64,000 bases of DNA. Source: Draconibacterium aestuarii. Its GTDB lineage: Bacteria; Bacteroidota; Bacteroidia; Bacteroidales; Prolixibacteraceae. Made by a program: the position numbers and the translations under genes. The notes beneath the pieces were generated by a model, which saw nothing but the letters and a program-made list of their open reading frames with translations, did not search any database and was not told where the DNA came from. Position 1 is the stretch's first letter. The number at the start of each line of letters is the position of its first letter. Positions 10,353 to 56,128 of the stretch are shown here, one piece after another. The stretch is taken from the NCBI GenBank assembly GCA_026671195.1, contig JAPOHD010000068.1, forward strand, positions 124,001 to 188,000, in the 5' to 3' direction.

Positions 10353-10392
10353 TTTTTCGTCTTCTGACTTCGTGCTTCTAACTTCTGACTTT

Positions 10393-13790: not shown

Positions 13791-13845
13791 GTTTTTTCAA
13801 CTACAAACACTGATTATTAAATACTCCCTTCCTGGTGGTTGATGT

Positions 13846-13875
13846 TCACCCGTTGATTCTGCGCTCATCGGGTGA
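13846..13875. terminator. Weak hairpin between convergent genes
   Basis: TCACCCG (13846-13852) pairs with CGGGTGA (13869-13875) across a 16-nt loop. No strong T-run follows, so a terminator role is tentative. Confidence 0.3.
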
Positions 13876-13894
13876 TACTATCGAATCCAATTGA

Positions 13895-35749: not shown

Positions 35750-35756
35750 TATGAGA

Positions 35757-36203
35757 TTAAATTTTTTCTTTAAAATCGAGTTTGATTTCACTCAATTCCA
35801 TTTGTTTGTCAACGGCTTTGCACATGTCGTAAATGGTAAGCAGGGCCACATTAACTGCTGTTAATGCCTCCATCTCAACACCGGTTTGCCCAATGCATTT
35901 TGTCAGACTGCTAACTTTAACACCATTTTCTTTTATGGTTGCCTTTACTTCAACTTTAGTTAGCTGCAATGGGTGGCAAAGCGGAATTAAACGTGAGGTT
36001 TCTTTGGCTGCCTGTATCCCTGCAATTTCGGCAATGGTAATTACATCTCCTTTTTTTATAAGGCTGTCCTTAATTAGTTTTACCGTTTCGGGTTGCAACC
36101 GAATAAAACCCGATGCTTTTGCGGTGCGTACCTGTTGTGGTTTAGCGCCCACATCAACCATGTTGGCTTTCCCTTCTGAATTTATATGCGATAGTTTGCT
36201 CAT
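35757..36203 (-). CDS. moaC: Cyclic pyranopterin monophosphate synthase MoaC
   Basis: The ATG at 36203 (MSKLSHINSEGKANMVDVGAK) gives 148 residues, close to the usual 160. Conserved features include MVDVGAKPQQVRTAKASGFI, AGIQAAKETSRLIPLCHPL with the catalytic region KETSxLIPLCHP, and GQTGVEMEALTAVNVALLTIYDMCKAVDK. MoaC converts the MoaA product, 3',8-cyclo-dihydro-GTP, to cyclic pyranopterin monophosphate. It starts one base after the moaA stop codon, so translation is coupled. Confidence 0.96.
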   Translation of the reverse strand: MSKLSHINSEGKANMVDVGAKPQQVRTAKASGFIRLQPETVKLIKDSLIKKGDVITIAEIAGIQAAKETSRLIPLCHPLQLTKVEVKATIKENGVKVSSLTKCIGQTGVEMEALTAVNVALLTIYDMCKAVDKQMELSEIKLDFKEKI

Positions 36204-36204
36204 A

Positions 36205-38164: not shown

Positions 38165-38706
38165 TGTTTTCGTGTAAACTTGTTGTTTATAAAGTTTAAA
38201 TGGTTTATGTCGAAATCAAATTCTTTCCCGTTGTTGTACACGATTATCGGAGAGTAGTTTAGGTGGTGTTTCTTTACCAATTCTTTCCCCGACTGGTGCA
38301 CAAAAAAGAACAGACCCGGTGTAACAATTTCATGTAAACCACCCGATTCGCAAACTATGGCATATTCTGGCAAGTGGCTTTGTATTTTTTGAAAAGCTTC
38401 GTGCAAATGTTCCTGTTTCGTCATGATAAAATATACATGTTTAGCCCCGGCTTTTAACATTAACGAACTGTCTTTTGTTGAGTTTTGCTTCTCTTCCAAA
38501 AGTATAAAATGTTCATTCTGAAACAAAATATCCTTTTCACAGAAGGAATGAAAATGGGATGATATTTTTATTCCGCACACTTTTGTTGTGGCTGAAAGTT
38601 GTGCAATGATTTTACAGGCGAAATAGGTTTTGCCCACATTTCGTCCGTTACCTGCAATCAGTAACAGGTTAGGCATATCTAATCCAATATTTGACTTAAT
38701 CTCCAT
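38161..38706 (-). CDS. mobB: MobB-like P-loop protein, molybdopterin-guanine dinucleotide assembly
   Basis: The ATG at 38706 (MEIKSNIGLDMPNLLLIAGN) gives 181 residues; ATGs at 38721 and 38676 are alternatives. The N-terminus has a Walker A GNGRNVGKT and continues with ACKIIAQL and VCGIKIS, as in MobB. MobB is a GTP-binding helper that aids attachment of GMP to the cofactor with MobA. It is the first gene behind the Moco riboswitch. The C-terminal half is less conserved, and other P-loop cofactor proteins remain possible, but the context makes MobB the best reading. No mobA is in the window. Confidence 0.78.
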   Translation of the reverse strand: MEIKSNIGLDMPNLLLIAGNGRNVGKTYFACKIIAQLSATTKVCGIKISSHFHSFCEKDILFQNEHFILLEEKQNSTKDSSLMLKAGAKHVYFIMTKQEHLHEAFQKIQSHLPEYAIVCESGGLHEIVTPGLFFFVHQSGKELVKKHHLNYSPIIVYNNGKEFDFDINHLNFINNKFTRKQ

Positions 38707-38744
38707 TATATAGTACAACAACGGAAAGAAGCGAGATTTCGCTT

Positions 38745-40858: not shown

Positions 40859-43800
40859 CTATATTGTTTCAGTTTCTTCTTTTGGTTTATTCTTACCTTC
40901 TGAAATAAAGGCGGCAGCAATTACAACAATTACTACAAAAACGGCTACATAAACACCCGTTGGAATTGGAGCCGCTTCGCCCTGTGCATAAGAATGTAGT
41001 CCTGATAAATAGTAGTTCACTCCAAAATAGGTCATTAATACCGAACTGAATCCAACAAGTGTTGCTGCACTTATGGCAAAGTTTCCTTTAAATCCGGGTA
41101 TGCGATGCATGTGCGTTATGAATGTGTAAACCAGTATGGTTACCAAAGCCCACGTTTCTTTGGGATCCCAGCCCCAGTAACGCCCCCAGCTTTCGTTGGC
41201 CCAAACGCCTCCTAAAAAGGAACCAACCGTAAGCATTAACAATCCAATTATTAATGCAATTTGTATTATATTGGTGAGTTCTTTTACCGTAAAGTTTATT
41301 CGGTTGTTATTTTTACTTGTCCTGAAAACCATAAGGATAAGATTTAGAAACCCAAGTAAAGCACTAATGCCGAGAAATCCATAGCTTGCCGTAATAATGG
41401 CTACATGTACGATTAACCAATACGATTTAAGCACCGGAACCAGATTGGTAATTTCCGGACTCATCCAACTCATTCCGGCTACCATTAAAGTTAATCCTGC
41501 TAATACGGTAGTAAGCGAAAGTGTAATTTCCGAGCGGCGTGAGAATATTAGTCCCCCCAAACATGTTGCCCAGCTTACAAAAATCATCGATTCGTAACCG
41601 TTGCTCCAGGGTGCATGCCCCGAAATATACCAGCGTATGCCAAGACCGGCTGTCTCAAAAACAAACATTAACAGGATGAAAAAGAAAGCCAGTTTTTTTA
41701 TAGTTCTCAGTTTTATTTTTGGATTAAAAACACTGGTTAATTGAATAAATAACAGAATCAAGCCTGTGAACATAAATATCTTTGAGAGTTTTCCAAAAAT
41801 ATTGATGTTATTATAAAAGACTTCCAGTTTTATTGTACCGGGCGATGGGAGTACCGAGGCACCATATTTTACCTGGTTTTCTTTTACAATTTGTAATAAC
41901 CTGTCTGCACTGGACCAATCGTTATTAAATACAGAGTTCATGTAACTATCAATGGTTTTTTGGGCATACAAAGCCATTTCGTCAGCAAGCATAGTAGGAT
42001 TTGCCGCCGATACCCATTTACTGTTTTCATGGTCAGGAATGGGGAAGATGGTAAGATACTGACCATTAAAAACGTTCATCAGAATATTTACCCGCTCGTC
42101 GACATAAATTATTTCCTTGTCAAGTTTATTGCGTTCGTTCGACTTTTTCTCATAGGCTTGCTGAACCATTGCGGCCAATTTGTACCCACCCATTTGCCTT
42201 GGCAGAACAATTGAATTGAAGGTAGCGTACTTCCCCGTATATATTCCAAGTTGCTTTCTTAGTTCAGGATTGGAAACTTTGATGATTGCAATGTTCTTCC
42301 ACTTTTCGGGATTGGCCTGCATGTCAAGAAATACTTCGGTAGGTGCCATCCCTTCCCAGCTTGTTTTTTTTGCAACTTTCCTCAAAATTTGTGATGCAAG
42401 CGTATTTACCGGCTCAATTCGTCCTTGTCGGTTTTGGATGGCCAGCTCACCAAATTCTTTTACGTGGTTTTTGTTTATGGCGGGTGCCTGTGCACTGGCA
42501 TTAAAACCCAATAGAACACCGACCACAATGATTGCAAAATATTTTTTACGTTCTTCTCTGATTTTAACTGATGTATTTAAAAGTGTTGTAAACCGGCTGT
42601 TTTTATTAAATAAACCTAAAACCATTCCAAGTACCATAATCAAATAACCAAAGTATGTAATTCCGGTGCCCAAAGCATCGTGGTTTACTGAAAGTATTGT
42701 TCCCTTTTCATCAGTGTCGTACGATGACTGAAAGAACCGATAACCCTGGTATTTTAAAATGTTATTCATATAAATTCGAAAAGGCTTTTCTGCGCCCTTG
42801 TCCTTTAAAATAACTTCGCTGGCATACGACGATGGACTCATAGAACCCGGGTATCTCTCCAGTTGGAATTCGGAGAGGTATAACGAAAATGGTAATTCAA
42901 TTTCTTTTGATCCGTATGTAATTTCTATATCGATGCCATTAATATGGGTATTTAACGGCGTTCCTGTTTCACCTTTTCTCCCAAAAATGATAACTTCTTT
43001 TGATTGATCACCAACAGTTACAAGTGTTTTAATACCGTCGGGTAATGCCATTCCTTTTTGGGGGTGCGAATAAATAAGTTCGGTTTTGGCTTTGGGAGTA
43101 AATTGTTGTACGACAAAATTTAATTGCCCAAGCGAATATAACTTTTGTATTTGTACTTCGGTTTCCGTTGAACCAGGAACAAGAGTAACGTCAGATTCTG
43201 ACATTCCCGACACGGTAATTGTATCGTGGGCAGTAATATATAACTTACTATTCTCAGTCCGAAAAATGATATCATTCGATTGAGATGGATTGAAACCAAT
43301 TGATTTCCCAAAAATCATTTTTGTGTCACCGGCTTCCAACATAAAGTCTGATCGTTGCATGTTTTCGTCAACTGCAATCATCGACAAAATAGCTAGCCCC
43401 ATTGGATCGGGAATAATTTGTTCAGTGGCAGAAGGCATGAACATCAGGTTTTTTATTTTAATCGTCTGTCCATTTAATTTTAGTTTGTCAGAAAACGAAT
43501 TTCCGGTGTAACCTGAGAACAGGACTTGCTTCTGGCTGGTGACTGTTTTCCCATTTTGTGTTGCCTTTACTGAAATAAAACTTTCAGTTGAGACGATTGA
43601 ATTAGAGGCTTGTCCTTCCCGGATATGCATGTTTCCTTCGTAACTATAGTAACGCGTGACCATTGCACCAATTCCTATTACGATAAATGCGATATGAAAC
43701 AATAACATGGGCCATTTCTTTCGAGTAACTAATTTGTGTTTAAAAATACTCCCGACTATATTTAAACACAATATTCCAAGTAATAATTCAAACCACCATG

Positions 43801-43939
43801 CCCTGTAGATTAGTATTTGAGCGGTTGTGGTTCCGTAATCATTTTCGATAAATGTGGCGTATGCAATGGCAATTCCAAAAATTATTAAAAGGATTCCAGT
43901 GAAAAACATGGACTGAAGAAATGAGAATATTTTTTTCAT
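40859..43939 (-). CDS. CcsBA-type cytochrome c haem lyase (fused ResB/CcsB and CcsA)
   Basis: The ATG at 43939 (MKKIFSFLQSMFFTGILL) gives 1026 residues; a longer frame starts at 43996. The N-terminal third is ResB/CcsB-like, with three membrane segments and a large periplasmic part (to about 430), then a membrane segment, a signal-like segment near 480 (KKYFAIIVVGVLLGFNASA) and a second periplasmic part. The C-terminal 300 residues are CcsA: eight or so membrane helices with the haem-handling WWD-like motif WANESWGRYWGWDPKETWA and the His in SGHAPWSNGYES and HVAIITASYG. The protein exports haem and attaches it to CXXCH motifs. It is the last gene of a row of multihaem cytochrome genes, the obvious clients. 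Confidence 0.94.
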   Translation of the reverse strand: MKKIFSFLQSMFFTGILLIIFGIAIAYATFIENDYGTTTAQILIYRAWWFELLLGILCLNIVGSIFKHKLVTRKKWPMLLFHIAFIVIGIGAMVTRYYSYEGNMHIREGQASNSIVSTESFISVKATQNGKTVTSQKQVLFSGYTGNSFSDKLKLNGQTIKIKNLMFMPSATEQIIPDPMGLAILSMIAVDENMQRSDFMLEAGDTKMIFGKSIGFNPSQSNDIIFRTENSKLYITAHDTITVSGMSESDVTLVPGSTETEVQIQKLYSLGQLNFVVQQFTPKAKTELIYSHPQKGMALPDGIKTLVTVGDQSKEVIIFGRKGETGTPLNTHINGIDIEITYGSKEIELPFSLYLSEFQLERYPGSMSPSSYASEVILKDKGAEKPFRIYMNNILKYQGYRFFQSSYDTDEKGTILSVNHDALGTGITYFGYLIMVLGMVLGLFNKNSRFTTLLNTSVKIREERKKYFAIIVVGVLLGFNASAQAPAINKNHVKEFGELAIQNRQGRIEPVNTLASQILRKVAKKTSWEGMAPTEVFLDMQANPEKWKNIAIIKVSNPELRKQLGIYTGKYATFNSIVLPRQMGGYKLAAMVQQAYEKKSNERNKLDKEIIYVDERVNILMNVFNGQYLTIFPIPDHENSKWVSAANPTMLADEMALYAQKTIDSYMNSVFNNDWSSADRLLQIVKENQVKYGASVLPSPGTIKLEVFYNNINIFGKLSKIFMFTGLILLFIQLTSVFNPKIKLRTIKKLAFFFILLMFVFETAGLGIRWYISGHAPWSNGYESMIFVSWATCLGGLIFSRRSEITLSLTTVLAGLTLMVAGMSWMSPEITNLVPVLKSYWLIVHVAIITASYGFLGISALLGFLNLILMVFRTSKNNNRINFTVKELTNIIQIALIIGLLMLTVGSFLGGVWANESWGRYWGWDPKETWALVTILVYTFITHMHRIPGFKGNFAISAATLVGFSSVLMTYFGVNYYLSGLHSYAQGEAAPIPTGVYVAVFVVIVVIAAAFISEGKNKPKEETETI

Positions 43940-44146
43940 GTGTTTAAAATTGTTTGTTTTTAAGGTATGCCATGGAATTCGCATAAAAAATTTCATAATA
44001 GTATTCCGACACTAAAGTTTAATAAACAATTTAATGTTCGATTGTGTTTGCGCTAAATTAAAAATGAAAAGGATTAACGCGCTAAAAAAAATCCTTTGCT
44101 AATAAAACAAAGGAATTTTCATTACTATTTACAATAGGTAGATTTG

Positions 44147-44638
44147 CTATTCGGTTGTTGGATCGTCGTGAGCAATTTTTGCTACATATTCTTCAAAATT
44201 AAATCCTTTATAATTCGGACTTTCTTCATTGTGACAAGTTTTACAAACTTTTTCGTCGGGTATAACCAATCCTTTGGCAAGCGAAAGTTTTTGATTCTTC
44301 ATTATAGCTGCAGTTTTATACATGCTACCAGGTCCGTGGCAAGATTCGCATGACACACCTTCTTCAACTTTTAAACCTGCCAGTAATTTAGAATCGACTG
44401 CAGCTGCCGTTGAATGACATTTTAAACATTTTGGATCGTTCGCTTCATCGCCCTTCAAACTTTCCATGGCTTTAGCGTGTGGCCCTTCCTGCCACTTGTT
44501 AAATTGTTCACCTTTGTCGGGCTTATTATGGCACATTTTGCATTTTGTAGCACCTATATACTTAAAATTTTGTGCGGATACGGCTGTACTTAAAAAGAAA
44601 GCCAGACCTAATAACAGGAATAAATTTTTGTAGTTCAT
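44147..44638 (-). CDS. Periplasmic tetrahaem cytochrome c (c554-like)
   Basis: 163 residues with a signal peptide (about 1-22, VSAQ). Four CXXCH haem sites: CKMCH, CLKCH, CESCH and CKTCH. The YIGATKCKMCHNKPDKGEQFNKWQEGPHAKAMESL opening matches the cytochrome c554/multihaem family, where the first site often reads CxMCH. Such proteins shuttle electrons in the periplasm. It lies 44 bp after the NapC-like gene, so the two are probably one transcript; a 207-bp gap follows before ccsBA. Confidence 0.93.
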   Translation of the reverse strand: MNYKNLFLLLGLAFFLSTAVSAQNFKYIGATKCKMCHNKPDKGEQFNKWQEGPHAKAMESLKGDEANDPKCLKCHSTAAAVDSKLLAGLKVEEGVSCESCHGPGSMYKTAAIMKNQKLSLAKGLVIPDEKVCKTCHNEESPNYKGFNFEEYVAKIAHDDPTTE

Positions 44639-44682
44639 ATTTTAAATTTTTAAGGTTTTGTAATTCATTTATTATATACTTG

Positions 44683-46185
44683 TTAATACAGAGCAGAGTG
44701 GCACACCGAGCATAGTTCTGTTTGCCATGCTTTATCAATATCAACGGGATGATTAAACTCAAGAGGTTCGAGTGAGTTCGCATAGGTCATTGTATCGGAA
44801 TTTCCCTGTGCTACTATATTGTGACACAAAGTGCAATCTTTTGAAATAACCACGCCTTTATCTGTTGCATGACGATCGTTGTGACAACGATAACATCCAT
44901 CCGATTCCATGTGCCCGATGTTATTGGGATATTCTTTCCAACTTACTTTCATATATGGAAATATATTATTGGCATAATCGGTTTTCATTTCTTCGATCGC
45001 CTCGTCAATGTCAGTCTTTCTTTCTTCATAAACCTCGGGGTAACCTGTTTCAAACCACTCTTTAACCTGTGTCTCAATTGCTAAAAATGCGCTGTCTTTT
45101 GTCGGGTATTCCTGGTTTAAAGCAAGCATTGCTATTAGTTTAATTCCCGGAAGAGTGGTGGATATTTTACCTTGACTCATTGATTGATCGATAAAATTTT
45201 GCGGCGCGTTGTAATTGTGTGATGGCCGGTTGTGGCAATCCAAACAATCCATAACTCTTGTTTCCAGCGAATCCAGTTCAGCCTCGCTTAGTATGTTTTC
45301 ATCGTCGGTAAAAACTTTTACATCGCCGGTTTTTATATTGGTGTATCGTACCCACGGAATAATTTGTCGTTTATCATCCGATGCCTTGTACTCTATCTTT
45401 ACATCAGGACTGATGTGCTGATGAATTCCTTTTTCAATTTCGCCTTTTGTTATTTTTGAACTGGTTTTAACCTGCAGGTGAATAATATTTTCGGTGTTAT
45501 CTTCTTCAGTAAGGAAAGAATGTTTGACTCTGAGTTTCCTGTCGTAAAATTTTTCGGGCCAGTGGCATTGCTCACACGTTTCTTGTGCCGGCCGTAAATT
45601 GGCAATTGGTGTTGGAATTGGTTGCGGGTATTTTTTTGCCAGCACCGAATATACCTGGTACAATCCCGAGAGTTTACTTTTTACATACCAACTTGCGCCC
45701 GAACCAACATGGCACTTTACGCAGGCAACCCGTTCGTGCGATGAACCGTGGTAGGTGGCATATTCCGGTTCCATAACCTGGTGACACAACTTACCGCAAA
45801 ATTCAACAGATTCAGTATAATGAAATGCTTCGTAACTGCCAATGGATGATATTATTAACAGAAAAATGGTTCCGATTATAAAAATAATAGCCGCATTACG
45901 TGTGCCTGTATTGTTAAAATCAATAGTGGGCCAGGCTAATTGTGTCCCTTCTTGATCGGCCTTTCTTGCCTTTTTACGATTAATTCGCATTCCAATAGGA
46001 ATAAGCAATAAACCAACAAATAAAAAAATTGGTAATACAATGTAAATGAAGAGTCCAATATAAGAGCCTCCAAAATTAAAAAGTGTATTCAGAATTACCA
46101 ATGATAATATGGTGGCGAGGTTAAAGCCAGCTAAAATTGCGCCGGCAATGGAGATCCAGTTTTTAATCGATGATGGTAATCTCAT
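44683..46185 (-). CDS. NapC/NirT-like membrane-anchored multihaem cytochrome c, seven haem sites
   Basis: 500 residues. Three membrane segments (about 11-33, 43-66, 97-117) precede a periplasmic haem domain. The first haem site is CGKLCH, a CX3CH instead of CXXCH, followed by HQVMEPEYATYHGSSHERVACVKCH typical of the NapC/NrfH family. The others are CEQCH, CLDCH, CYRCH, CTLCH and CSVCH, the last five residues before the C-terminus. NapC/NrfH proteins oxidise quinol and pass electrons to periplasmic reductases. This one is longer and has more haems than the usual four or five. A candidate FNR site lies 109-122 bp upstream of its start. Confidence 0.92.
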   Translation of the reverse strand: MRLPSSIKNWISIAGAILAGFNLATILSLVILNTLFNFGGSYIGLFIYIVLPIFLFVGLLLIPIGMRINRKKARKADQEGTQLAWPTIDFNNTGTRNAAIIFIIGTIFLLIISSIGSYEAFHYTESVEFCGKLCHQVMEPEYATYHGSSHERVACVKCHVGSGASWYVKSKLSGLYQVYSVLAKKYPQPIPTPIANLRPAQETCEQCHWPEKFYDRKLRVKHSFLTEEDNTENIIHLQVKTSSKITKGEIEKGIHQHISPDVKIEYKASDDKRQIIPWVRYTNIKTGDVKVFTDDENILSEAELDSLETRVMDCLDCHNRPSHNYNAPQNFIDQSMSQGKISTTLPGIKLIAMLALNQEYPTKDSAFLAIETQVKEWFETGYPEVYEERKTDIDEAIEEMKTDYANNIFPYMKVSWKEYPNNIGHMESDGCYRCHNDRHATDKGVVISKDCTLCHNIVAQGNSDTMTYANSLEPLEFNHPVDIDKAWQTELCSVCHSALY

Positions 46186-46293
46186 TTGTATTTATTTTAA
46201 AGTATATTTTTAAACATTATACTTCTTACAAGATTGTAAAAAATGTATAATATTTCAACACTCATTCTTAATTTGTAATTCTTCTATATATGC

Positions 46294-46307
46294 TTGATAA
46301 TTATGAA
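46294..46307. promoter_or_regulatory. Candidate FNR/Crp site before the NapC-like gene
   Basis: TTGATAATTATGAA matches TTGAT-N4-ATCAA in nine of ten fixed positions. It lies about 110-120 bp before the start codon of the NapC-like gene, in a 255-bp gap. Confidence 0.45.
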
Positions 46308-46440
46308 ATTATGCTCTTTGCTTTTATGGTTTGTTAATCTTCGTTAGTCCATAATTCTTGTCATTTTCAGTAGGTTAATAAACACTGTTTTTTAAACACA
46401 TCTCGTAAATAATCATTCTATGGTATTAAGTTTTTGATTC

Positions 46441-49290
46441 TTAATGAAAAAGTAAGGAGTATATTATTAATCCAACCAGAACTATTCCGCAGAAAAGAGC
46501 GATAAAACCGAAAGTTCTTATCCATCTCATTTTTTGTTTTGAAAACTCTTTTTCAACCATAACCTCTGCTAATTTGCCGGATTTTCTGAGCTCTTCAAAT
46601 TCGTGGGGCCTGTCTTTTCTGTATTCATCAACAGGTACATGACCTGTGAAAATTACGGTATCCATTGGAAATGCTTCAGGACGAAGGTGGGTATTAAAGA
46701 AGTGTACGGTGAAAATAAAACCAACAGCAAGCAATGCTTCGTCGCTATGGATAATTTGTGCCACATTTATTAACCATCCCGGTAAAAAGCGGGTGAAAAA
46801 TTCGGGGAACCAAAGCATTAATCCGGTTGAACCAATTACCACCACTCCCCAAAAAACAGCAAAATAATCAAACTTCTCCCAATAGGTCCAACGGCCATAT
46901 TTCGGACGTTTACCAATTCCGATAAACCATTTTATTGAAGCCCAAAAATCTTGAACATCCTTACGATTGAACATCAATGAATTACTACCAAAAATAAATT
47001 TACTGAAAGTAACACCGTGGTTGAATTTAATTTTCAGCAACGATACAACGTGAAAAATAAAATAGCCAAAAGTAATTACTGCCGCAATTCGATGAATTCT
47101 ACCGGCAATCAAGGCACCTCCAATTTGGTTTGAAAGAAATTTGGCCCAGTCCATGTAGGCAAATTTTAAAATCATTCCGGTAAGTGCCAGCATTATAAAA
47201 CTTACAATTATAAAAATGTGGGTTATGCGGTTCTTTTTTGAAAAACGCCTGATATACATTTGTTTTCCTTCAATTTTTTTGTGCTTCTTTTTCTTTTTGA
47301 TCATTGCTCCCAACGAACGTGGAATCCATAATAATGTGTGTAAGCCAAAAAATGCAAAAACACTTAAAAGTAAACCGGTCATTGCCCAGAAGGTGTAATA
47401 CAGCCAGGGAAATTTACTTTTGTCGTAGTGTGTGGCGTGTGTGAGGTAACCCGTGAATTTCATATTCGCATCTTCGTGGCATTTTTTGCAGGTACCAACT
47501 ATGTTTCGCGGACTGATTGTTGATTTCTGATTATCCATCCGATAAATGTTGTGGGCTCCATGGCAATCGGAACACCTCGCGGCCTGGTTGTAACCCAATT
47601 GATAAACTTTGCCATGATAGGTTTCCAAATAGGTTTCGGCAAGCTCACTATGGCACTGACCACACTGACTTGTAATTTCAGACATGAATTTATCTTCGTG
47701 TACATTGGAAATCTGATGAGCTGAATGACAGGTTTCACAGGTTGGGAATTTTTGGTCTCCCATATTGTCCTTATGACCGTGCTCACTTTGCGTATATTCA
47801 TCGTAAATACCTTTGTGGCATTGCCCGCATGTTTTAGCTAAATTCGCCGGATTAATAGACGAACGCTCATCTTCTTCTTTCAAATTTAAATGAGTGGTGT
47901 GGCAATCGGTACAAATAGCTGCTGATAATAGTCCCTTTTTTTCTAAACTTTTACCATGCACACTATTCGAATAATCGTAATAAACATTCTTTTCTTTAAG
48001 ATCAGCCGTTTCTGTTGCCTGCCCGTTTTCGGTATGGCACGATCCGCATAATTTTGGAACTGCCGACCTGAAAACAGGAGAGGTTTCATCATCTGCTCTC
48101 TTAACTATATGCGATCCGTGGCAATCGGTACAATAAGGAGCATTGGGATCTTTGGCAAAATAGGCTGTTCCATGTCCACTCGAAAAATAAATTTCGGCTT
48201 CTTCTGCATGGCAGCTCGAACAATCTATCTTGTTGGCAGTTTCGCAGGGACGTGCAATATTCGCTGTTACATCGGAATGACATTTTACACAAGTAATATT
48301 GTTGTGTGCCGATCCGACCAAATCATTTACGTTGACGGTTAATGATACTTGCTGGTTGTCTACTATTTTATGTAATGCTTCGTTCTCGTGACAAGTCAGA
48401 CATGTTTTATCCGAAATATTGGCCACAATATTTTGTATCTCCACTTTATGAGGTGGATGACAATCGGTACAGGCGGGAATTGCTCCTGGCTTTTTCTCCC
48501 ACAACTCTTTATTAATAACTTTAACGTGAACATCTTCAATACGCGCGTGACATTTCATACAGGTACTCGCAATGTTTTTTTGCGAAATACTCGAATTTAT
48601 GTTCGTGTGTGGTAATACCAGGTGATTGCCATGGCAGTCGTTACAGGTAGCGGTTACTATCAATCCACTGTTGAAAAGTCCCTTCCCGTGAATGCCCTGG
48701 CTGTAATTTTCTATGATGTTATGTTCCGGAATATTGTATGATCGTGCAACCGGAGCTCCCTCGCGATGACATTTGGCACATAACACCGGGATGTTCATTT
48801 TATAGGTAAGCGATTTCGGATCGGAAGAACTTATAATCTGGTGGGTTCCGTGACATTCGGCACAATCAGGTGCATTTCTGTCATTAGCCAGAAACGCTTT
48901 CCCATGAACACCACCTAAAAAATTAGTCAGCGGCTCATCATGACACTCGCCGCAGTTCACTGGTTGTAGTGTATCAGGATGTGGAAATTCTTCTACATCA
49001 GCATCGGTGTGGCACGAAATACATTCAAGGTAACTGTGTACCGAGTTTTCCAGGATTCCGGCAGGAATATATCTGGATAGTTTTCTGCCGCTTCGCAAAG
49101 TGTATAGGTCCGGATCGTCGTGACACATGGCACAATCTTCATTTGACTGAGCCTGTAATTGCATACTGGTAATAAATAAACAAGTAGCAATGAATATAAA
49201 CTGTATGAATTTTCTGGAACCTATATGATAAATATTTCGAGATATATATCGGGTTCCGAAAACGATTAGTCCTTCCGGTATTTTAAGCAT
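46441..49290 (-). CDS. Nineteen-haem cytochrome c fused to a cytochrome b membrane module
   Basis: 949 residues. After a signal region (about 20-50; [21 protein letters not shown]) come nineteen CXXCH sites between about residues 54 and 630 (CAMCH to CKKCH), many followed by xxxH as in [16 protein letters not shown] and CSDCHGAH, which are cytochrome c3-like bis-His pairs. The C-terminal 300 residues hold about six membrane helices with His ligands ([45 protein letters not shown]) as in cytochrome b561/formate dehydrogenase gamma subunits. A quinol-linked cytochrome b and a periplasmic haem wire in one chain is the natural reading. It should take electrons from menaquinol, or return them, and carry them away from the membrane. 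Confidence 0.93.
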
Positions 49291-49423
49291 CCTTCTTCTT
49301 TTAAAGTTGTAAAATCACTTTTTATCCTTCTTCACGTTCGGAATCTAAAATTTCAGTTAATTACTTTGCATTCTTGAACCAATTCCGATATGTTTCTAGT
49401 TCTGACGATATATTCTTTTTCCG

Positions 49424-50041
49424 CTAAACATGATGCCATCCATTTATAATACTTTTAAAATTATGTAATGGTGTTTTGCCAATTGATGCTACATACAAGT
49501 GTATTATTAAAAAAATGGAAATAAAGAAGCCAAGTGCAGAGTGTAATACTGCAGTAATAAAAACACCACTTAAGTTGTATACCTTTTCAATAATCAGCTC
49601 TGGAAACAGCAGTGCAAATCCGGTTATAATTACCAAAAGAACTGCTACATACATTATAAAAACATAAAAGTATTTTTGAAGTGGATTAAATTTTCTTTTT
49701 TCAGACAGCGGATAGGGAGCTTTCATTCCATTAAACATGCCCCATATATAATAATAAGCCTGTTTTAAGGGGCGTTTTATAAAGTTTTTAGGTTTAACAA
49801 TATAATAGACACTATTTCGGGTAATTATATTTCCGATCAAAAACACCAGGTAATTAATCGAAACCAGAACGCCCGATACATTGTGCACATTAACTGCAAC
49901 ATTAAAGCTTATAAACGACGATTCTTCAGCCGTTCGCATGGAGATTCCGGTAATGATCAACAGGATTATTCCAATTGCATTTATAGCGTGCCAAATACGC
50001 AACCAAAGCGGGTAAAAATATATTTTATTAGTACTGGTCAT
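49424..50041 (-). CDS. Cytochrome b561-type membrane subunit
   Basis: 205 residues with four main membrane helices and a His in each of the expected places: LWLRIWHAINAIG (helix 1), VNVHNVSGV (helix 2), AVLHSALGF and LIIHLYVASIG (helices 3 and 4). This is the di-haem cytochrome b561/thiosulfate-reductase cytochrome b fold that passes electrons between quinone and a c-type cytochrome. It is 5 bp downstream of the heptahaem cytochrome gene and surely pairs with it. It is a second cytochrome b besides the one fused in the 46441 gene. Confidence 0.9.
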   Translation of the reverse strand: MTSTNKIYFYPLWLRIWHAINAIGIILLIITGISMRTAEESSFISFNVAVNVHNVSGVLVSINYLVFLIGNIITRNSVYYIVKPKNFIKRPLKQAYYYIWGMFNGMKAPYPLSEKRKFNPLQKYFYVFIMYVAVLLVIITGFALLFPELIIEKVYNLSGVFITAVLHSALGFFISIFLIIHLYVASIGKTPLHNFKSIINGWHHV

Positions 50042-50046
50042 ATGCT

Positions 50047-50982
50047 CTATTTTTTTAATATTCTGAAAACAGTATGAATAATGATTCCGGCAAGGGTTAG
50101 AATAAAAATGAGTTTACTTAACCAATTTAGTAAAGGCACCTGGTTTGCCCCGATAACATACGAATCGTTAGATATAACCGTAGATAACATACCATTTTCT
50201 GACCGTTGTTGCAGATTCTGGTATTTGTACAACGATGCTTTTAAACGCGAATTTGCAGTGTGACATTCCACACAGTTTCTAACGGCCTGTTCTTTGCCGA
50301 CAATGTTGTGCGAGACCAATAAACTATCGGTAACCTGTGTATGGCACTCTATACAACGAACATGTTCAAAATGCAGTTCCTGATTTGGCAACCACTCGTG
50401 AATTTGGACAATTTTTGGATTTTCATGACCCGATACCATTTCGTACCTTTTCATATCGTTGTGGCACGAAAGACACATGTTATTGCTGTACTCAACAATT
50501 TTCAGTACATCATCACTTATCCGGGTAGTTGATGCGTATGTGTGTTGACTGTGACATTTTGCACAGGTAAAATTATCTTCATACAATTGATAATGTACAC
50601 TTTTGCGGAATTCCTCGTCAATCACTTCAAACTGGTACCTGGCAAATGATTCATCGCCTCCGTGGCAATCGAGACATGTTCCCAGTGGCTCCAGTTTTAA
50701 CTCGGCATTATGCGGATAGGTTGTATAATCGTAGGAGTGGCAGTCGGTACAGTCAAACTGATTATGAACACCCAACTTTAGCGCTGTAGTATCGATTATA
50801 TAATACGGATTCATTAACTTCTTTTCTTCGGTTTCCAATAACGAATTATGGAACTTGTAAGATTGGTTCGAGTGGCATTTCAAGCAGGCATGGTTTTGGG
50901 CATCATTATAATATTGTGCCCGTGCCACTGTATTAATTCCTATCAAAAACAGTAGTTGTATTATGAACTGACAATTTCTCAT
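50047..50982 (-). CDS. Membrane-anchored heptahaem cytochrome c
   Basis: 311 residues with a signal peptide (about 1-22) and a C-terminal membrane helix (about 287-305, WLSKLIFILTLAGIIIHTVF). Seven CXXCH sites: CLKCH, CTDCH, CLDCH, CAKCH, CLSCH, CIECH and CVECH. Several have a partner His a few residues on (CAKCHSQH). The tail anchor would hold the haem domain at the periplasmic face of the inner membrane, next to the cytochrome b encoded 5 bp downstream. Together they form a two-part quinol:cytochrome module (inference). Confidence 0.92.
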   Translation of the reverse strand: MRNCQFIIQLLFLIGINTVARAQYYNDAQNHACLKCHSNQSYKFHNSLLETEEKKLMNPYYIIDTTALKLGVHNQFDCTDCHSYDYTTYPHNAELKLEPLGTCLDCHGGDESFARYQFEVIDEEFRKSVHYQLYEDNFTCAKCHSQHTYASTTRISDDVLKIVEYSNNMCLSCHNDMKRYEMVSGHENPKIVQIHEWLPNQELHFEHVRCIECHTQVTDSLLVSHNIVGKEQAVRNCVECHTANSRLKASLYKYQNLQQRSENGMLSTVISNDSYVIGANQVPLLNWLSKLIFILTLAGIIIHTVFRILKK

Positions 50983-51049
50983 TTGAAATTATTATTTGGA
51001 ATAGTTTACTTTTGATTGCTTACGTTTTTTCTGAAATTGATTTTTTTAG

Positions 51050-51090
51050 TAAAAATGGTAATATCACAAATTAGTGATATTACCATTTAA
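51050..51090 (-). terminator. Rho-independent terminator after the beta-barrel gene
   Basis: A perfect 15-bp stem AAATGGTAATATCAC (51053-51067) with GTGATATTACCATTT (51074-51088), 6-nt loop, followed on the minus strand by a T-run. It separates the barrel gene from the heptahaem gene, so the cluster is at least two transcripts. Confidence 0.8.
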
Positions 51091-51118
51091 TAGAACAGTC
51101 ATTTGCGTTTTTATCATA

Positions 51119-52033
51119 TTAAAACATCCAAAGTCGGGTTATTGTAAAGCCTATTGCTAGTCCTTTGTTTTTCCAGTCGTTTTGATTGTATGTCATAATG
51201 TCTTGCGGAATTATACCGTCTGCAGTTCCAACATAAATCTGGAAGGCATGCGTAAAAGTAAATATTTCAACTCCAAAAGCCAGGTTTGGTTTCGCATGCG
51301 TGTCCCATGTGCTTTGTTCTGTAATATTTTTAATTTTTAACGGATGGTCATACGTGAACATGAGTGAACCTTGTGGTGAGAATTTAATCCTACCGTTAAC
51401 ATGTGCACCAATTATATCGTGGTTATAATCATGATCAACCAAATTATAGTGAGTAAAGCTGGCACCTGCCTGTAGTGAAAACCAATCACAAAATTTTCTA
51501 CCAATAATTAATTGAGAAAAGTAAGAGAACCGGTCGTCAAAACCTAAATGAAAAATGCCACTTTCACCAGAATGTCGAATGTCCCCTGTGCCAAAAGCAT
51601 CTTCATTACGACCATCAATTGCAAAAACTCCATACAAAGCTATCGATACCGGCACTTTGTTTTGTTCCGTTTGCTGAAAAACAGTCCATTTCGCATTAAA
51701 ATCGGTGTACATGTTCTTCTTGGTTTGCCCGATACCTATTTGGAAATTCTTAATGGGCGTATAGTTTAATCCCAGGCGAACATTAGCTCCTGGTGCGTAA
51801 ATTCCCCATAAATCGGATGTTCCATTTTGCATGGAGCCAAATTTGTGTTGAATTATAAATTCCAAAGTTCTGGCATCCGGTATTACAGTTGTCTGTGCAT
51901 CTATTAATATACCACTTTCAAATGGCGGACTTACAGGAGTATCTTTTACTTTCTCAGTTTCTTCTTGTGCAAAGAGTTGTATTGCATAAGCGAAAATGGC
52001 GAGTAATATTATATATTTTTTCATAGTAAACAT
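51119..52033 (-). CDS. DUF5777-type outer-membrane beta-barrel protein
   Basis: 304 residues with a signal peptide (MKKYIILLAIFAYAIQLFAQ after an alternative upstream Met). The mature chain is a run of amphipathic beta strands with alternating aromatic residues (VIPDARTLEFIIQHKFGSM, ANVRLGLNYTPIKNFQIGIGQTKKNMYTDFNAKW, SYFSQLIIGRKFCDWFSLQAGASF) and a C-terminal aromatic strand ending LWMF, as in outer-membrane barrels. It matches the DUF5777 pattern. It lies 11 bp after a monohaem lipoprotein gene, which suggests that the two work together. A pore or scaffold for electron exit through the outer membrane is inference; no haem motif is present in it. Confidence 0.82.
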   Translation of the reverse strand: MFTMKKYIILLAIFAYAIQLFAQEETEKVKDTPVSPPFESGILIDAQTTVIPDARTLEFIIQHKFGSMQNGTSDLWGIYAPGANVRLGLNYTPIKNFQIGIGQTKKNMYTDFNAKWTVFQQTEQNKVPVSIALYGVFAIDGRNEDAFGTGDIRHSGESGIFHLGFDDRFSYFSQLIIGRKFCDWFSLQAGASFTHYNLVDHDYNHDIIGAHVNGRIKFSPQGSLMFTYDHPLKIKNITEQSTWDTHAKPNLAFGVEIFTFTHAFQIYVGTADGIIPQDIMTYNQNDWKNKGLAIGFTITRLWMF

Positions 52034-52044
52034 TTTGAATATGG

Positions 52045-52434
52045 TTAGTTATTCTGAGCTCCCTGATTTATCCATAGAAGTATCTGCGATGCCTGTGTAG
52101 TGGAGTATTTTGCCCAGCTGTGCTTGCCGGTTGCAGGAGATGGGTAATCATAAATAGAACTGCTCTCAGGATCTGATGTATTCACGTACCCTGGAACGAT
52201 GTTTGAATACACATTTGTTCCGGTTAAATTGGGAGCTTGCCCACCGTTGTGGCAAGAAACACATTTCGCAGAAGTGAATATTGGAACGATATCTTGCGTG
52301 AAACTAATCTCCGGAGCATCCGGATCGTCGGGATCTGTAGGGATTTCAGGTTCCGGAATCATAAAGTTGTATAAACATCCTGTAAACAGGAAGGTAACAA
52401 ATACAACGGAGAATAAAATCTTGAGTTTTTTCAT
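52045..52434 (-). CDS. Monohaem c-type cytochrome lipoprotein
   Basis: 129 residues with a lipoprotein signal (lipobox LFTGC, Cys at residue 20). An Asp/Pro-rich spacer (EIPTDPDDPDAP) is followed by SFTQDIVPIFTSAKCVSCHNGGQ with a single CXXCH, then an NLTGTNVYSNIV block and a final ILLWINQGAQNN; this is the layout of small cytochrome c domains found in Bacteroidota/Planctomycetota surface proteins. It is likely anchored to the outer membrane by lipid. The gene overlaps nothing and is 11 bp before the barrel gene on the same strand. Confidence 0.88.
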   Translation of the reverse strand: MKKLKILFSVVFVTFLFTGCLYNFMIPEPEIPTDPDDPDAPEISFTQDIVPIFTSAKCVSCHNGGQAPNLTGTNVYSNIVPGYVNTSDPESSSIYDYPSPATGKHSWAKYSTTQASQILLWINQGAQNN

Positions 52435-52466
52435 GATAAAATTTCTTAGTATGAAAAAGTAATAAA

Positions 52467-52496
52467 AAAGACTTCTTGTAAAAAAGAAGTCTTTAT
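52467..52496 (-). terminator. Terminator after the collagen-like cytochrome gene
   Basis: AAAGACTTCTT (52467-52477) pairs perfectly with AAGAAGTCTTT (52484-52494); on the minus strand a T-run follows. It lies between the hexahaem and monohaem genes, so readthrough would be needed for one long transcript. Confidence 0.75.
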
Positions 52497-52541
52497 TATC
52501 CTATTTTATAAGTATCATCTTAATGTGGCATGAAATGGTTA

Positions 52542-53633
52542 TTACAATCCTAAAGCAGTTTCGGCAGATGTTAACAAATTTTCGAAATGAGGAGGATTAT
52601 GAGCACCGTGGCTGTGATCTTCATAAAGATACATATAGTGCCAGAATGCTTCAAATTCTGCATCTGTAACAATTGATACTGCAGGATGATATTCTCCGGT
52701 ATCTTCATCTTTACCAAGTGCACCTGCAGTTACCAATGCTTCAGCAATTGCTTCCAGCCTTTCATCAAATGCTGTACGTTTGCCATTGATGTTAAAATCG
52801 GTTGCACCTGAGTGGCACTTATTACAATTAGCTAAACTTGGTTTAAACGAGTGACCACCTGTTGCACCGTCAACTGTTCCCATATGACAACCGGTACATC
52901 CAACACTTGTATGCGTAGCAATAGTCCCTGTAATCATTGCACCATCACCCAAAAGTGTGTTCGCTTGTGGTCCGTGGTGTGGTCCGGCGTGCGAACTGTT
53001 AATTGCAACCATTCCATCAGGAACTTTTGTCATAATTCCATTGATTTTTACAGAATCAATTGCTTGATAGTATTGGTAGCCTCTTCTTGACTGGTGGCAG
53101 TTTGCACACAAATTGGAAGCATTACCAAAATCAAGTGTAACTGTTGCGTCAGCAATGGCTGTAACAGGAGCTACTGTTGTCATTGGCGCACTAATGTCGT
53201 CTTCCAAACTCTGGTGGTTTGCATGACAGGTTGAACAACTAATTCTGGTAGGATATGCAATATTCACTGCAGCAACACCTTCAGCTTGATTAAGCGAATT
53301 TAGAAATAACTCGTTAGAGTGACATGGAGAACAACTTGCTCTGCCACCTGCATAACTTGTAGTTTCTCCAGCATTGTGCCCCGAGTAGTTATAAAGTGCT
53401 CTAAGCGCATCCATTCCGGCTTGAGTATGGCAAACCAAACAAGACACATTTCCATCAACGCCGTCCTTGCCGTCTGTTCCGTCTTTACCATCTATTCCAT
53501 TGATACCATTTTCCCCGTTTTCACCATTTAGTCCATTAGCACCCATTGGCCCCTCTTTTGTGGTACACGATGCTGCCATAAGAACACAGATGAATGCAAA
53601 TAAAAAAAGTTTAAAAAATGAAGTGTATTTCAT
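52542..53633 (-). CDS. Hexahaem cytochrome c lipoprotein with collagen-like stalk
   Basis: 363 residues. A lipoprotein signal (lipobox MAASC, Cys at residue 23) is followed by a Gly-X-Y stretch at about 28-62 (GPMGANGLNGENGENGINGIDGKDG...), a collagen-like repeat of about eleven triplets. The rest holds six CXXCH sites: CLVCH, CSPCH, CSTCH, CANCH, CTGCH and CNKCH. The arrangement puts the haem domain on a stalk away from a lipid anchor. It is the first gene of the cytochrome cluster, behind a perfect FNR-type palindrome. Surface or periplasmic exposure cannot be decided from the sequence. A C-terminal region (about 285-363) has no haem and may bind a partner. Confidence 0.9.
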   Translation of the reverse strand: MKYTSFFKLFLFAFICVLMAASCTTKEGPMGANGLNGENGENGINGIDGKDGTDGKDGVDGNVSCLVCHTQAGMDALRALYNYSGHNAGETTSYAGGRASCSPCHSNELFLNSLNQAEGVAAVNIAYPTRISCSTCHANHQSLEDDISAPMTTVAPVTAIADATVTLDFGNASNLCANCHQSRRGYQYYQAIDSVKINGIMTKVPDGMVAINSSHAGPHHGPQANTLLGDGAMITGTIATHTSVGCTGCHMGTVDGATGGHSFKPSLANCNKCHSGATDFNINGKRTAFDERLEAIAEALVTAGALGKDEDTGEYHPAVSIVTDAEFEAFWHYMYLYEDHSHGAHNPPHFENLLTSAETALGL

Positions 53634-53697
53634 AACGTAAAGTATTTTGATATAGGTTTATTAATTCTTACTTATCACTGGAAGTAAAAATAGTTGT

Positions 53698-53709
53698 CTA
53701 TACGTATAG
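53698..53709. promoter_or_regulatory. 12-bp perfect palindrome in the leader of the hexahaem gene
   Basis: CTATACGTATAG lies about 65-76 bp before the start codon, downstream of the likely transcription start. It could be an operator or a processing site; no known regulator is assigned. Confidence 0.3.
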
Positions 53710-53736
53710 TATTACGTCGAGGTAGGTGATATAAAA

Positions 53737-53783
53737 GAAATGTATGCGTGATATAAGACAATAGGTGCGTTGATAAATATCAA
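53737..53783 (-). promoter_or_regulatory. FNR-type operator and promoter of the cytochrome cluster
   Basis: TTGATAAATATCAA (53770-53783) is a perfect match to the FNR consensus TTGAT-N4-ATCAA. On the minus strand a -7-like TACATTTC lies at 53744-53737, placing the palindrome centre about 45 bp before the expected transcription start, near the class II activator position. The ATG is 137 bp further down. The palindrome ends 2 bp before the stop codon of the Crp/Fnr gene. Confidence 0.7.
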
Positions 53784-53784
53784 C

Positions 53785-54516
53785 TTATCCGTTTTTGCTA
53801 ATCTTTATTAATGAATCTTCGTTCAATATTTCAATTGTATTGCCTTGTGTCCTAATTGCTTGAGATTCTTTTAGCTGGTGGAGTATTCGTACAAAGCTTT
53901 CTTTTGTCATGTTCGACATTTCAGCTAATTCGTGGCGGGTAAGCGGAACATTGAATGTATTTGTTTTGAAAATTTCGTTCTTTAAATAGAGTAACGTATC
54001 AGCAACTCTACCCGGCATATATTTTTGTGTATGGTCTACTAGTTTTTTAAGCAGAAAGTTGTTTTGTTTGGTGTGATGGCGTAATAATTTAACTGCAAAA
54101 TCGCTGTTCTCCGAAAATATTGTAGTAAGCTTGGCCGAGTCAATCAAGCAGCATTGTACTGAGGTTAACGCTGAAATACTAAAATGTTGTACACTTCCAT
54201 TAAACAGGCCACCACCAGTAATAAAATCTCCTTTAGAGGCAATATTTACAATCACATTCTTTCCAGCATTGCTTTCTACATAAATTTTTGCCAATCCTTC
54301 TTTTACACAAATAACGGTTGTGGTTGAAGTGTTTTGTTTAATTATTGTTTCTCCAGGGTTGTAAATAATTTGTTGTTTCCCTTCAATAAGAAAATCCAGC
54401 TCTTTTGATGATAATGGAGCAAAAACACTTGACTTATGTGTCTCTATACATATTTTGCAACAATTGTTGTTCTTTTTTGTACAGTTCTCGCAATTATTAT
54501 CAAGTAATTTAGCCAT
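53785..54516 (-). CDS. Crp/Fnr family transcriptional regulator with Cys-rich N-terminus
   Basis: 243 residues. The N-terminus has Cys 9, 12, 19, 20 and 23 (CENC, six residues, CCKIC), which could hold an iron-sulfur cluster as in FNR, although the spacing differs. Residues about 30-150 form the cyclic-nucleotide-binding fold (FAPLSSKELDFLIEGKQQIIYNPGETIIKQN, GDFITGGGLF), and further Cys occur in SVQCCLID. A winged helix-turn-helix occupies about 165-235 (PLTRHELAEMSNMTKESFVRILHQLKE), the recognition helix being TKESFVRILHQLK. It stands just upstream of the cytochrome cluster, whose first promoter has a perfect FNR site, so it is the obvious regulator (inference). It could instead respond to nitric oxide, as some Bacteroidota homologues do. 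Confidence 0.88.
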   Translation of the reverse strand: MAKLLDNNCENCTKKNNNCCKICIETHKSSVFAPLSSKELDFLIEGKQQIIYNPGETIIKQNTSTTTVICVKEGLAKIYVESNAGKNVIVNIASKGDFITGGGLFNGSVQHFSISALTSVQCCLIDSAKLTTIFSENSDFAVKLLRHHTKQNNFLLKKLVDHTQKYMPGRVADTLLYLKNEIFKTNTFNVPLTRHELAEMSNMTKESFVRILHQLKESQAIRTQGNTIEILNEDSLIKISKNG

Positions 54517-55354: not shown

Positions 55355-56128
55355 TTAAACTAATCGTGTACCTCTGCCGGTAGCAATATTTTCAGGATTT
55401 GTAATTAATATCTCTTTTACACCTTTCATTTTAGCGCGGAACCCATTTTCAAGTTTGGGAATCATTCCATCGCTAATGACACCTTCATTTTTATATTGGT
55501 TAAAAAGAGCCAAATCCAGATCGTAAATTACAGACGATTCATCGTCGGGATCAACCAGTACCCCACGTTTTTCGAAACAATAAAAAAGGTAAACACTATA
55601 ATAATTTGATAGTTCGCTGGCCAGTTCTGAAGCAATGGTATCGGCATTGGTATTTAAAAGATGGCCTTTCCCATCGTGCGTGAGAGGAGCGATTACCGGG
55701 ACTACATTTTCGTTTATTAACAGACGCAACTCAGCCGGATTTACATCATCAACATCGCCAACAAAACCATAGTCGATGTCTTTTACAGGACGTTTGTGTG
55801 CTTTTATCAAATCAAGGTCGGCACCTGTTAAACCAATGGCATTCATTCCCCGGGATTGCAATCCTGCAACAATTCTTTTGTTTACCAATCCTCCGTAAAC
55901 CATTGTAACCACTTCAAGCATGTCGGCATCGGTAATTCGTCGTCCTTCTACCATTTTTGTTTCAATGCCCAGTTTTTTGGCAACTTCGGTAGCTGTCCTT
56001 CCACCTCCATGTACCAAAAGCTTATTCCCTGAAATATGATCGAACTGGTCGAGAAGCGCATTTAGCGATTCCGGTTCTTCAACAACTTTCCCACCTACTT
56101 TTATTATCGTTAGCCTATCCATGCTCAA
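55355..56128 (-). CDS. argB: Acetylglutamate kinase ArgB (or acyl-glutamate kinase)
   Basis: 257 residues of the amino-acid kinase fold. Motifs: IIKVGGKVVEEPESL (N-terminal Lys and glycines), LVHGGGRTATEVAKKLG (substrate and ATP loop), GLTGADLDLIKAHKR, PVIAPLTHDGKGHLLNTNADTIASELA and ISDGMIPKLENGFRAKMKGVKEILI. ArgB phosphorylates N-acetylglutamate in arginine synthesis; many Bacteroidota use N-succinyl intermediates, so the true acyl group is open. It is the last gene of the his cluster, 8 bp after hisH, in the place where hisA is usual. No other arginine gene is in the window. Confidence 0.9.
   Translation of the reverse strand: MSMDRLTIIKVGGKVVEEPESLNALLDQFDHISGNKLLVHGGGRTATEVAKKLGIETKMVEGRRITDADMLEVVTMVYGGLVNKRIVAGLQSRGMNAIGLTGADLDLIKAHKRPVKDIDYGFVGDVDDVNPAELRLLINENVVPVIAPLTHDGKGHLLNTNADTIASELASELSNYYSVYLFYCFEKRGVLVDPDDESSVIYDLDLALFNQYKNEGVISDGMIPKLENGFRAKMKGVKEILITNPENIATGRGTRLV

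Follow-up and report, generated by a model that had tools for sequence, protein, structure and literature searches.

What does a bacterium do with six c-type cytochromes encoded side by side when no terminal reductase is seen among them? The question is raised by positions 40859-54516 of a stretch of Draconibacterium aestuarii DNA of 64,000 nucleotides (hereafter the window), where a block of genes on the minus strand encodes these cytochromes together with an outer-membrane barrel, a haem lyase and a regulator. We read the block as an FNR-controlled operon for extracellular electron transfer with a Geobacter-like set of quinol gateways, and give this reading a probability of about 0.6. An electron route from the inner membrane to the cell surface was already proposed in the initial annotation and stands as the best reading, on the grounds of architecture and co-conservation. 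The inner-membrane part proves more specific than first stated, uniting look-alikes of three Geobacter quinol gateways (ImcH-, CbcL- and CbcBA-type, by anatomy and architecture), and the outer-membrane end is unlike known conduits.

Composition of the cytochrome block

Open frames were called with a simple script, and the resulting listing of the window places ten genes in the block, all on the minus strand, where nine had been counted initially. Their order is regulator, c6 (a hexahaem lipoprotein), c1 (a monohaem lipoprotein), barrel, c7 (a heptahaem cytochrome), b561 (a cytochrome b), c19b (a 19-haem domain fused to a cytochrome b), ImcH-like predicted quinol dehydrogenase, c4 (a tetrahaem cytochrome) and CcsBA, with intergenic gaps of 5 bases between c7 and b561 and 11 bases between the barrel and c1. 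A script count of haem motifs finds 4 in c4, 6 CXXCH plus 1 CX3CH in the ImcH-like protein, 19 in c19b, 7 in c7, 1 in c1 and 6 in c6, which confirms the earlier figure of 43 CXXCH and one CX3CH in six cytochromes on one strand. In the whole 64 kb, CXXCH is restricted to these six frames (among stop-to-stop frames of at least 60 amino acids), so that the clustering is not due to chance. Inspection by eye of the open frames, in the block and in the window flanks, showed no reductase gene, the profile searches having covered the block genes only.

Candidate inner-membrane quinol gateways

The ImcH-like protein (44683..46185, 500 amino acids) matches Cytochrom_NNT and has three N-terminal helices, seen as hydrophobic stretches at residues 13-31, 43-61 and 98-116, followed by a CX3CH at residue 130 and then six CXXCH. 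Among its 63 homologues (59 distinct), six CXXCH are found in 60 and the CX3CH in 63/63, which makes it probable that the latter is a genuine haem site. Pooled locus counts, here and below, contain the same genome under two identifiers in some cases (for example L046/L114, L050/L077 and L053/L082) as well as many close relatives, and are not independent. ImcH homologues are described by Zhong and Shi (2018, PMC6295460) as NapC/NirT-related proteins of 495-519 amino acids with three N-terminal helices, a membrane-proximal CX3CH and six (5-9) CX2CH. By this description, the protein of the block agrees with Geobacter ImcH in length, helix number, the CX3CH beside the membrane domain, the six CXXCH and a NapC/NirT-like stretch; it differs in that CbcL-like and CbcBA-like genes share its operon. 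The initial name was NapC-like; the published ImcH description is the more specific fit. A search of the plasmid collection with the ImcH-like protein gave no match. In one relative (L101:15578-19855), the ImcH-like gene is followed by genes for tetrahaem, 4Fe-4S and NrfD-type membrane proteins (Pfam), possibly a further quinone module, and the same arrangement, judged from gene sizes and haem count only, is present at L095:18148-22318.

The c19b protein (46441..49290) joins a 19-haem domain (C7/paired CXXCH) to a formate-dehydrogenase/hydrogenase-type cytochrome b (Ni_hydr_CYTB at residues 612-767). Five of the six helices of the membrane part appear in a crude hydrophobicity scan and the sixth was read from an alignment, in which eight homologues share invariant histidines in this region. 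The layout published for CbcL has the haems in the N-terminal half and the cytochrome b membrane half at the C-terminus, with 3-23 haems among CbcL/MtrH/MtoC homologues and nine in G. sulfurreducens CbcL (PMC6295460). Compared by description, c19b shares this architecture, and its 19 haems lie within the published range. It differs from the nine-haem CbcL in a number that is nearly fixed among its homologues: a scan of genome contigs gave at least 566 relatives, and the best 80, which were examined, contain 75 full-length fused frames, 73 of them with exactly 19 CXXCH and two with 21, the other five loci being without such a frame by the script's criteria.

The third look-alike is formed by c7 (50047..50982), with seven CXXCH, a C-terminal membrane helix and CbcA-like anatomy, and b561 (49424..50041), a four-helix cytochrome b of CbcB-like anatomy with four hydrophobic stretches and a match to PF01292 (Ni_hydr_CYTB, E 6.2e-25). 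Seven CXXCH and the C-terminal helix recur in 41/41 c7 homologues of 280-380 amino acids, and b561 adjoins a c7-family gene in 41/41 loci, with seven haems in 39 and 13 haems in two distant loci (L057, L058). According to PMC7726332 and PMC10470525, CbcA is a membrane-bound cytochrome with seven haems and CbcB a cytochrome b of family PF01292, so that the likeness, again by description, lies in adjoining genes for two such proteins; the difference is that the G. metallireducens partners CbcC-E, likewise compared by description only, are without recognised counterparts in the block. The plasmid collection holds 50 records matching b561; the 15 listed show 31-35% identity, and the annotated ones among them are thiosulfate reductase cytochrome b. 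Sequence searches of the PDB returned weak cytochrome matches only and, for the barrel, none of note. Since Bacteroidetes have already been credited with five CbcL-family homologues and one ImcH homologue (Table 1, PMC6295460), the gateway parts are not new to the phylum.

Two further genes complete this side of the block. The candidate shuttle is c4 (44147..44638), a predicted periplasmic tetrahaem cytochrome of c554 type (Cytochrome_C554, PF13435, E 1.1e-14) with a hydrophobic, signal-like N-terminus, and the only cytochrome of the block that has neither an anchor nor a membrane helix. The c-type cytochrome assembly factor CcsBA (40859..43996) is a ResB-CcsA fusion haem lyase matching PF01578 (Cytochrom_C_asm) and PF05140 (ResB), with 183.1 bits against TIGR03144, slightly below the cut-off of 187.6.

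Conservation and distribution

A match to the operon barrel is present in 20 of 25 genomes of the genus, the source genome included. Eighteen genus operons were tabulated, G211 and G198 being left out as they lie on short contigs, and 11 of the 18 are complete. G212 has eight genes on a contig that ends in the c6 region. In G203, a single-contig genome, c19b is cut to 181 amino acids (L056, 8985-9530) and the c4 frame has 123, the other genes being kept. G207, G209 and G213 are without c19b only, G216 is without c19b and has no ordinary c4, and G219 is without both c19b and the ImcH-like gene. In G207, G209 and G219 the gaps yielded no c19b remnant, and in G213 the neighbouring frames overlap and leave no room for the gene. 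An unrooted tree of 17 genomes places G209 and G203 among c19b-bearing genomes and the other four in one group (support 74); if c19b is ancestral, this placement makes three separate losses likely. Loci L225, L226 and L227 are without c19b.

The synteny check proposed initially shows that close relatives keep the genes together. The same order is found in Draconibacterium sediminis, Maribellus sp. YY47, Mangrovibacterium lignilyticum and Prolixibacteraceae metagenome-assembled genomes, and a reordered version in metagenome-assembled genomes of other Bacteroidales. Outside the family, five loci of the same order (L230, L231, L232, L234 and L235) all have c1, the barrel and c7, with c6 in four, b561 in three and the ImcH-like gene in two; L232 ends at c7, and in L234 a c19b-like frame running off the contig replaces b561. 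L233, L236 and L237, also at order level, hold only distant DUF5777 paralogues of the barrel, without c7. The distribution of c19b is wider: by record titles, its best 80 relatives include Bacteroidota, Calditrichota, Latescibacterota, Aminicenantes, Acidobacteria, Elusimicrobia, Spirochaetes, Zixiibacteriota and others, and in these 80 of at least 566 loci the commonest neighbours are c4 (33) and the ImcH-like gene (32), while at some loci (among L077-L156) the DNA examined encodes none of the other cytochromes of the set. Of 198 genomes sampled across the phylum, 31 have a c19b match, the source genome being the only one of its class among them.

Next to the block, the window holds genes read by eye as moeA, mobB, moaA, moaC and a MOSC/MogA fusion (34811-38721). 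They border the block in most genus loci and are missing from more distant ones, and these molybdenum-cofactor genes, considered as functional partners, were taken to be chance neighbours. On the other side, the gene at 55355-56128 reads by eye as acetylglutamate kinase. Beyond CcsBA in one relative (L228, from G216) lies a gene for an 817-residue 16-haem protein.

Probable regulation by an FNR-like protein

The regulator (53785..54516, 243 amino acids) has Pfam cNMP-binding and Crp-type helix-turn-helix domains and is of the Crp/Fnr type. Its cysteines 9, 20, 23, 70 and 123 are kept in at least 90% of 21 aligned homologues. FNR proteins hold an Fe-S cluster through a characteristic cysteine pattern, from whose E. 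coli form the N-terminal spacing here differs; the conserved cysteines are FNR-like and suggest oxygen sensing. Between the regulator and c6, at 53770..53783, lies the palindrome TTGATNNNNATCAA, a perfect match to the FNR-type operator consensus. It is the only exact copy in the window; 17 of 100 shuffles of the window contain at least one exact copy, so that position and conservation weigh more than the count, and with one mismatch allowed the window holds 10 copies against 6.6 expected, which is chance level. In 300-base regions upstream of 35 c6 genes, 12 exact and 13 one-mismatch copies are found (25/35), compared with 3 exact and 15 one-mismatch copies in 566 control regions (18/566); the controls are random open reading frames of the same loci rather than operon heads, and many of the 35 c6 genes come from close relatives. 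The conserved box suggests that the operon is probably under FNR control and regulated by oxygen. Scans for sigma-70 promoters and terminators stayed at chance level.

The outer-membrane barrel and its monohaem partner

The barrel gene (51119..52033) encodes an outer-membrane beta-barrel of the DUF5777 family (PF19089, E 2.2e-72), the sole DUF5777 match in its own genome; the family is found in 47 of 118 genomes sampled across the phylum. The AlphaFold2 model has 12 strands at a mean predicted local distance difference test (pLDDT) score of 78.4, and Foldseek pairs it, among the matches shown, with porins and further barrels of the outer membrane at query template modelling (TM) scores of 0.27-0.51. 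Strand numbers are 26 for MtrB and 16 for Cyc2, and Ext proteins have been predicted to have 18-21. An Mtr-type or Geobacter porin-cytochrome conduit inside the block, which would combine a large barrel with a periplasmic multihaem cytochrome fitting inside it, is unlikely because the modelled barrel has 12 strands and is too small. The block likewise differs from conduits of the MtrCAB, OmcB and Ext types in having no periplasmic 12- or 14-haem partner.

The neighbouring c1 (52045..52434) is a monohaem protein with a lipobox. Its pairing with the barrel had been put forward as part of what sets the locus apart from Mtr-type sets; the small barrel bears out the distinction, and the pairing does not serve as a hallmark of this operon, as 22 of 29 Bacteroidota DUF5777 loci inspected have a monohaem protein (CX2CH or CX4CH) within about 1.5 kb. 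Among 44 cases in and around the operon, 39 have a CX2CH monohaem frame no more than 700 bases from the barrel; the five exceptions are two contig starts, L095 and two distant paralogues. Some of the DUF5777-linked monohaem proteins of loci L246-L274 have CX4CH sites. In one case the monohaem protein beside a DUF5777 barrel is of planctomycete type. Extra monohaem genes lie between the barrel and c7 in L228, L230 and L234.

What distinguishes the operon version is the residue downstream of the haem site. In the general DUF5777 loci, 26 of 27 monohaem proteins have Met-Pro at least 25 residues past the site. The c1 of the block has histidine instead. In the first set of operon c1 proteins, histidine is present and Met-Pro absent in the stretch tested in 24/24; of ten further ones, eight have histidine without Met-Pro, and those of L230 and L234, with CX4CH sites, have neither. 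Pooled, Met-Pro occurs in 0/34 and histidine in 32/34. Bis-His ligation lowers haem potential, and the pattern points to a change of the apparent haem ligand from methionine to histidine in most operon c1 proteins, which would lower their potential. The operon thus resembles the DUF5777-monohaem clusters of other Bacteroidota in the adjoining pair and differs in this ligand and in having no YceI gene, of which one was identified by Pfam in L233, the one DUF5777 cluster of that layout that was annotated. The Cyc2 iron oxidase, a monohaem domain fused to a barrel, also combines one haem with one barrel; here, by contrast, the genes are separate, the cytochrome has a lipid anchor and the model has 12 strands instead of 16.

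The hexahaem lipoprotein c6

The candidate surface cytochrome is c6 (52542..53633), which has a lipobox, a collagen-like stalk and a match to Pfam Cytochrom_C552 (E 2.8e-8, over the cut-off). Across 15 sequences, six invariant haem cysteine pairs are accompanied by six further histidines, five of them invariant and one nearly so, and there is no CXXCK motif. With six further histidines for six haems, every haem could be bis-His and no open site is apparent, which suggests a role in electron transfer and not in catalysis at an open site. The model has a low mean pLDDT of 63.5; Foldseek ranks OcwA (E 1e-3) and NrfA as nearest to it, and by its own count lists no match at E <=0.001. In 11 complete genus operons, mean pairwise identity is lowest for c6 (49.2%), followed by 67.0% for c1 and 83-85% for c19b, the ImcH-like protein and b561. 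Geobacter conduits are described in PMC6148476 as having surface lipoproteins that are replaced or variable beside steadier partners.

A further link to the cell surface comes from L140 and L152 (Chlorobi, Ignavibacteriales), where a run of genes on one strand comprises a 13-haem c19b relative, c19(b), c4 and the ImcH-like gene together with Rieske-like, cytochrome b-like and 11-haem genes (the first two named by the look of the sequence). It goes on to a barrel-like protein of 427-442 amino acids, a protein with 12 or 14 haems and a c6 homologue that has a collagen-like stalk. The barrel was named by sequence appearance, and Pfam gave no match for the L140 protein. A similar run in L155 stops with the contig or locus before any c6, and another in L069 is without the ImcH-like gene and has a ten-haem lipoprotein. 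Porin-cytochrome clusters have been reported in Ignavibacteria (PMC7399161), and the runs in L140, L152 and, in part, L155 are conduit-like; the likeness of those in L140 and L152 to the block is a c6-family multihaem lipoprotein beside the same inner-membrane core. As a candidate surface lipoprotein, c6 has a lipobox, a stalk and two distant homologues in these runs.

Reductases and a second cytochrome cluster elsewhere in the genome

The statement that no catalytic reductase is present stands for the block and does not extend to the genome, which encodes NrfHA (contig C61), a NapA-like enzyme (C20) and two Psr/Phs-like enzymes (C13 and C7), the molybdoenzyme names being read from sequence and neighbours; the weak OcwA/NrfA-like model of c6 is a further qualification. 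A reductase just outside the block as sole partner, the case named initially as contrary to the proposed route, was not found. NrfA, Nap and Psr were not seen by eye in the window flanks. When the organism's own NrfA, NrfH and NapA-like proteins and both Psr-like ones were compared by blastp with open frames from 127 relatives' loci, the single match was a NapA-like frame, partial and at the border of the cluster locus in a distant relative (L063:19377-19904). Near one Psr/Phs-like molybdoenzyme lies a gene for a 919-residue cytochrome b/11-haem fusion (L220:7299-10058).

Contig C20 carries a second cytochrome cluster (L218, G000:C20:50000-69999, 7312-14101, minus strand), which encodes 28-haem (707 amino acids) and 20-haem (528 amino acids) cytochromes, a barrel-like protein of 541 amino acids and an oxidoreductase with FAD and FeS groups. 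The barrel character of the 541-residue protein was judged by eye, and Pfam gave no match for it. The 28-haem protein is matched in 14 of the 20 genus genomes that have the operon barrel and in one of the five that lack it; in five of the 14 the match covers about the first half only. This protein appears to vary in length between relatives through internal repeats.

Proposed electron route and alternative explanations

In the extracellular electron transfer that we favour, low oxygen would let the FNR-like regulator bind the box before c6 and switch the operon on. Menaquinol would then be oxidised by up to three alternative gateways, namely the ImcH-type protein, the CbcL-type 19-haem/cytochrome b fusion and the CbcBA-type pair c7 and b561. 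Electrons would pass to the periplasmic tetrahaem c4, in the role that PpcA has in Geobacter, and from there to the lipid-anchored cytochromes, that is, to monohaem c1 with the DUF5777 barrel and to hexahaem c6 at the surface, where extracellular acceptors would be reduced; CcsBA would make the haem proteins. The genes themselves, their architecture, their co-conservation and the conserved FNR-type box are observed; the sensing of oxygen, the oxidation of quinol, the direction of flow, the acceptor and the surface placement of c6 and c1 are inferred. Several points weigh against this proposal. The block encodes no barrel large enough for a multihaem conduit, going by the 12-strand model, and the crossing of the outer membrane stays outside the explanation. 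The surface position of c6 and c1 is a predicted placement, and the c6 homologues of L140 and L152 are only 25-26% identical to c6. The putative kinship to Geobacter ImcH, CbcL and CbcBA is a likeness to published descriptions. With c19b missing or cut in 6/18 tabulated genus operons and the ImcH-like gene missing in 1/18, neither is indispensable. Finally, no literature linking Draconibacterium with cytochromes and extracellular electron transfer was found, in a search that did not cover Maribellus and Mangrovibacterium.

The operon might instead serve as a periplasmic hub of general use, passing electrons to reductases for soluble acceptors whose genes lie elsewhere (NrfA, NapA-like, Psr/Phs-like), with the lipoproteins as accessories. 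The presence of NrfHA and three molybdoenzymes in the genome, the molybdenum-cofactor genes (named by eye) directly adjoining the block and the partial NapA-like frame in 1/127 relatives' loci agree with such a hub. However, these reductases have partners of their own (NrfH by NrfA, an FeS protein by both Psr-like enzymes and a dihaem protein near the NapA-like one), the 127 loci hold no further reductase relative, and two lipoproteins and an outer-membrane barrel would be superfluous for a periplasmic role, and we regard the hub as unlikely. That c6 is itself the terminal reductase, an OcwA- or NrfA-related lipoprotein acting on a soluble or shuttle compound at the surface, appears more doubtful still: the Cytochrom_C552 match and the best Foldseek hits point that way, but model confidence is low, the hits do not register in Foldseek's own count, and the extra histidines, which suffice for six bis-His haems, and the missing CXXCK fit a reductase poorly. 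An inward chain, in which Fe(II), Fe(0) or a syntrophic partner supplies electrons at the surface for the reduction of quinone, seems very improbable. CbcL/MtrH/MtoC homologues also occur in Fe(II) oxidisers (PMC6295460) and CbcBA has been predicted to run in reverse in Seep-SRB2, yet ImcH homologues are described in PMC6295460 as implicated so far only in quinol oxidation, and FNR-type induction suits anaerobic respiration better.

Two further proposals concern the outer membrane. In a refinement compatible with extracellular electron transfer, the operon would deliver electrons to the outer membrane and the C20 cluster would make the crossing. The cluster is present in the genome and its 28-haem protein tends to accompany the barrel, but the link is loose, with six barrel-bearing genomes lacking a match, five matches of half length and some genomes incomplete, and the 541-residue barrel is one judged by eye and blank in Pfam; we hold this refinement to be rather unlikely. 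The other, which we hold to be quite unlikely, is that the DUF5777 barrel and lipid-anchored c1 form a new outer-membrane electron crossing, a split analogue of Cyc2 unrelated to Mtr and porin-cytochrome conduits, in which the change from methionine to histidine would tune the pair to the low-potential ImcH/CbcL/CbcBA chain. Our estimate for this crossing was lowered slightly because 2/34 operon c1 proteins lack the histidine.

Significance

In the part of the open-licence literature that was searched, no prior report of the operon was found, the DUF5777 family is unnamed and few Bacteroidia are credited with extracellular respiration. Geobacter ImcH, CbcL and CbcBA are described as working at different acceptor potentials. 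With three look-alikes of these gateways in one operon, and c19b missing or cut in a third of the tabulated genus operons, the reason for keeping several quinol gateways becomes testable in relatives. The analysis also points to DUF5777 as a redox-linked family of outer-membrane barrels, and the crossing by barrel and c1, if true, would mean that Bacteroidia have an extracellular respiration route of their own.

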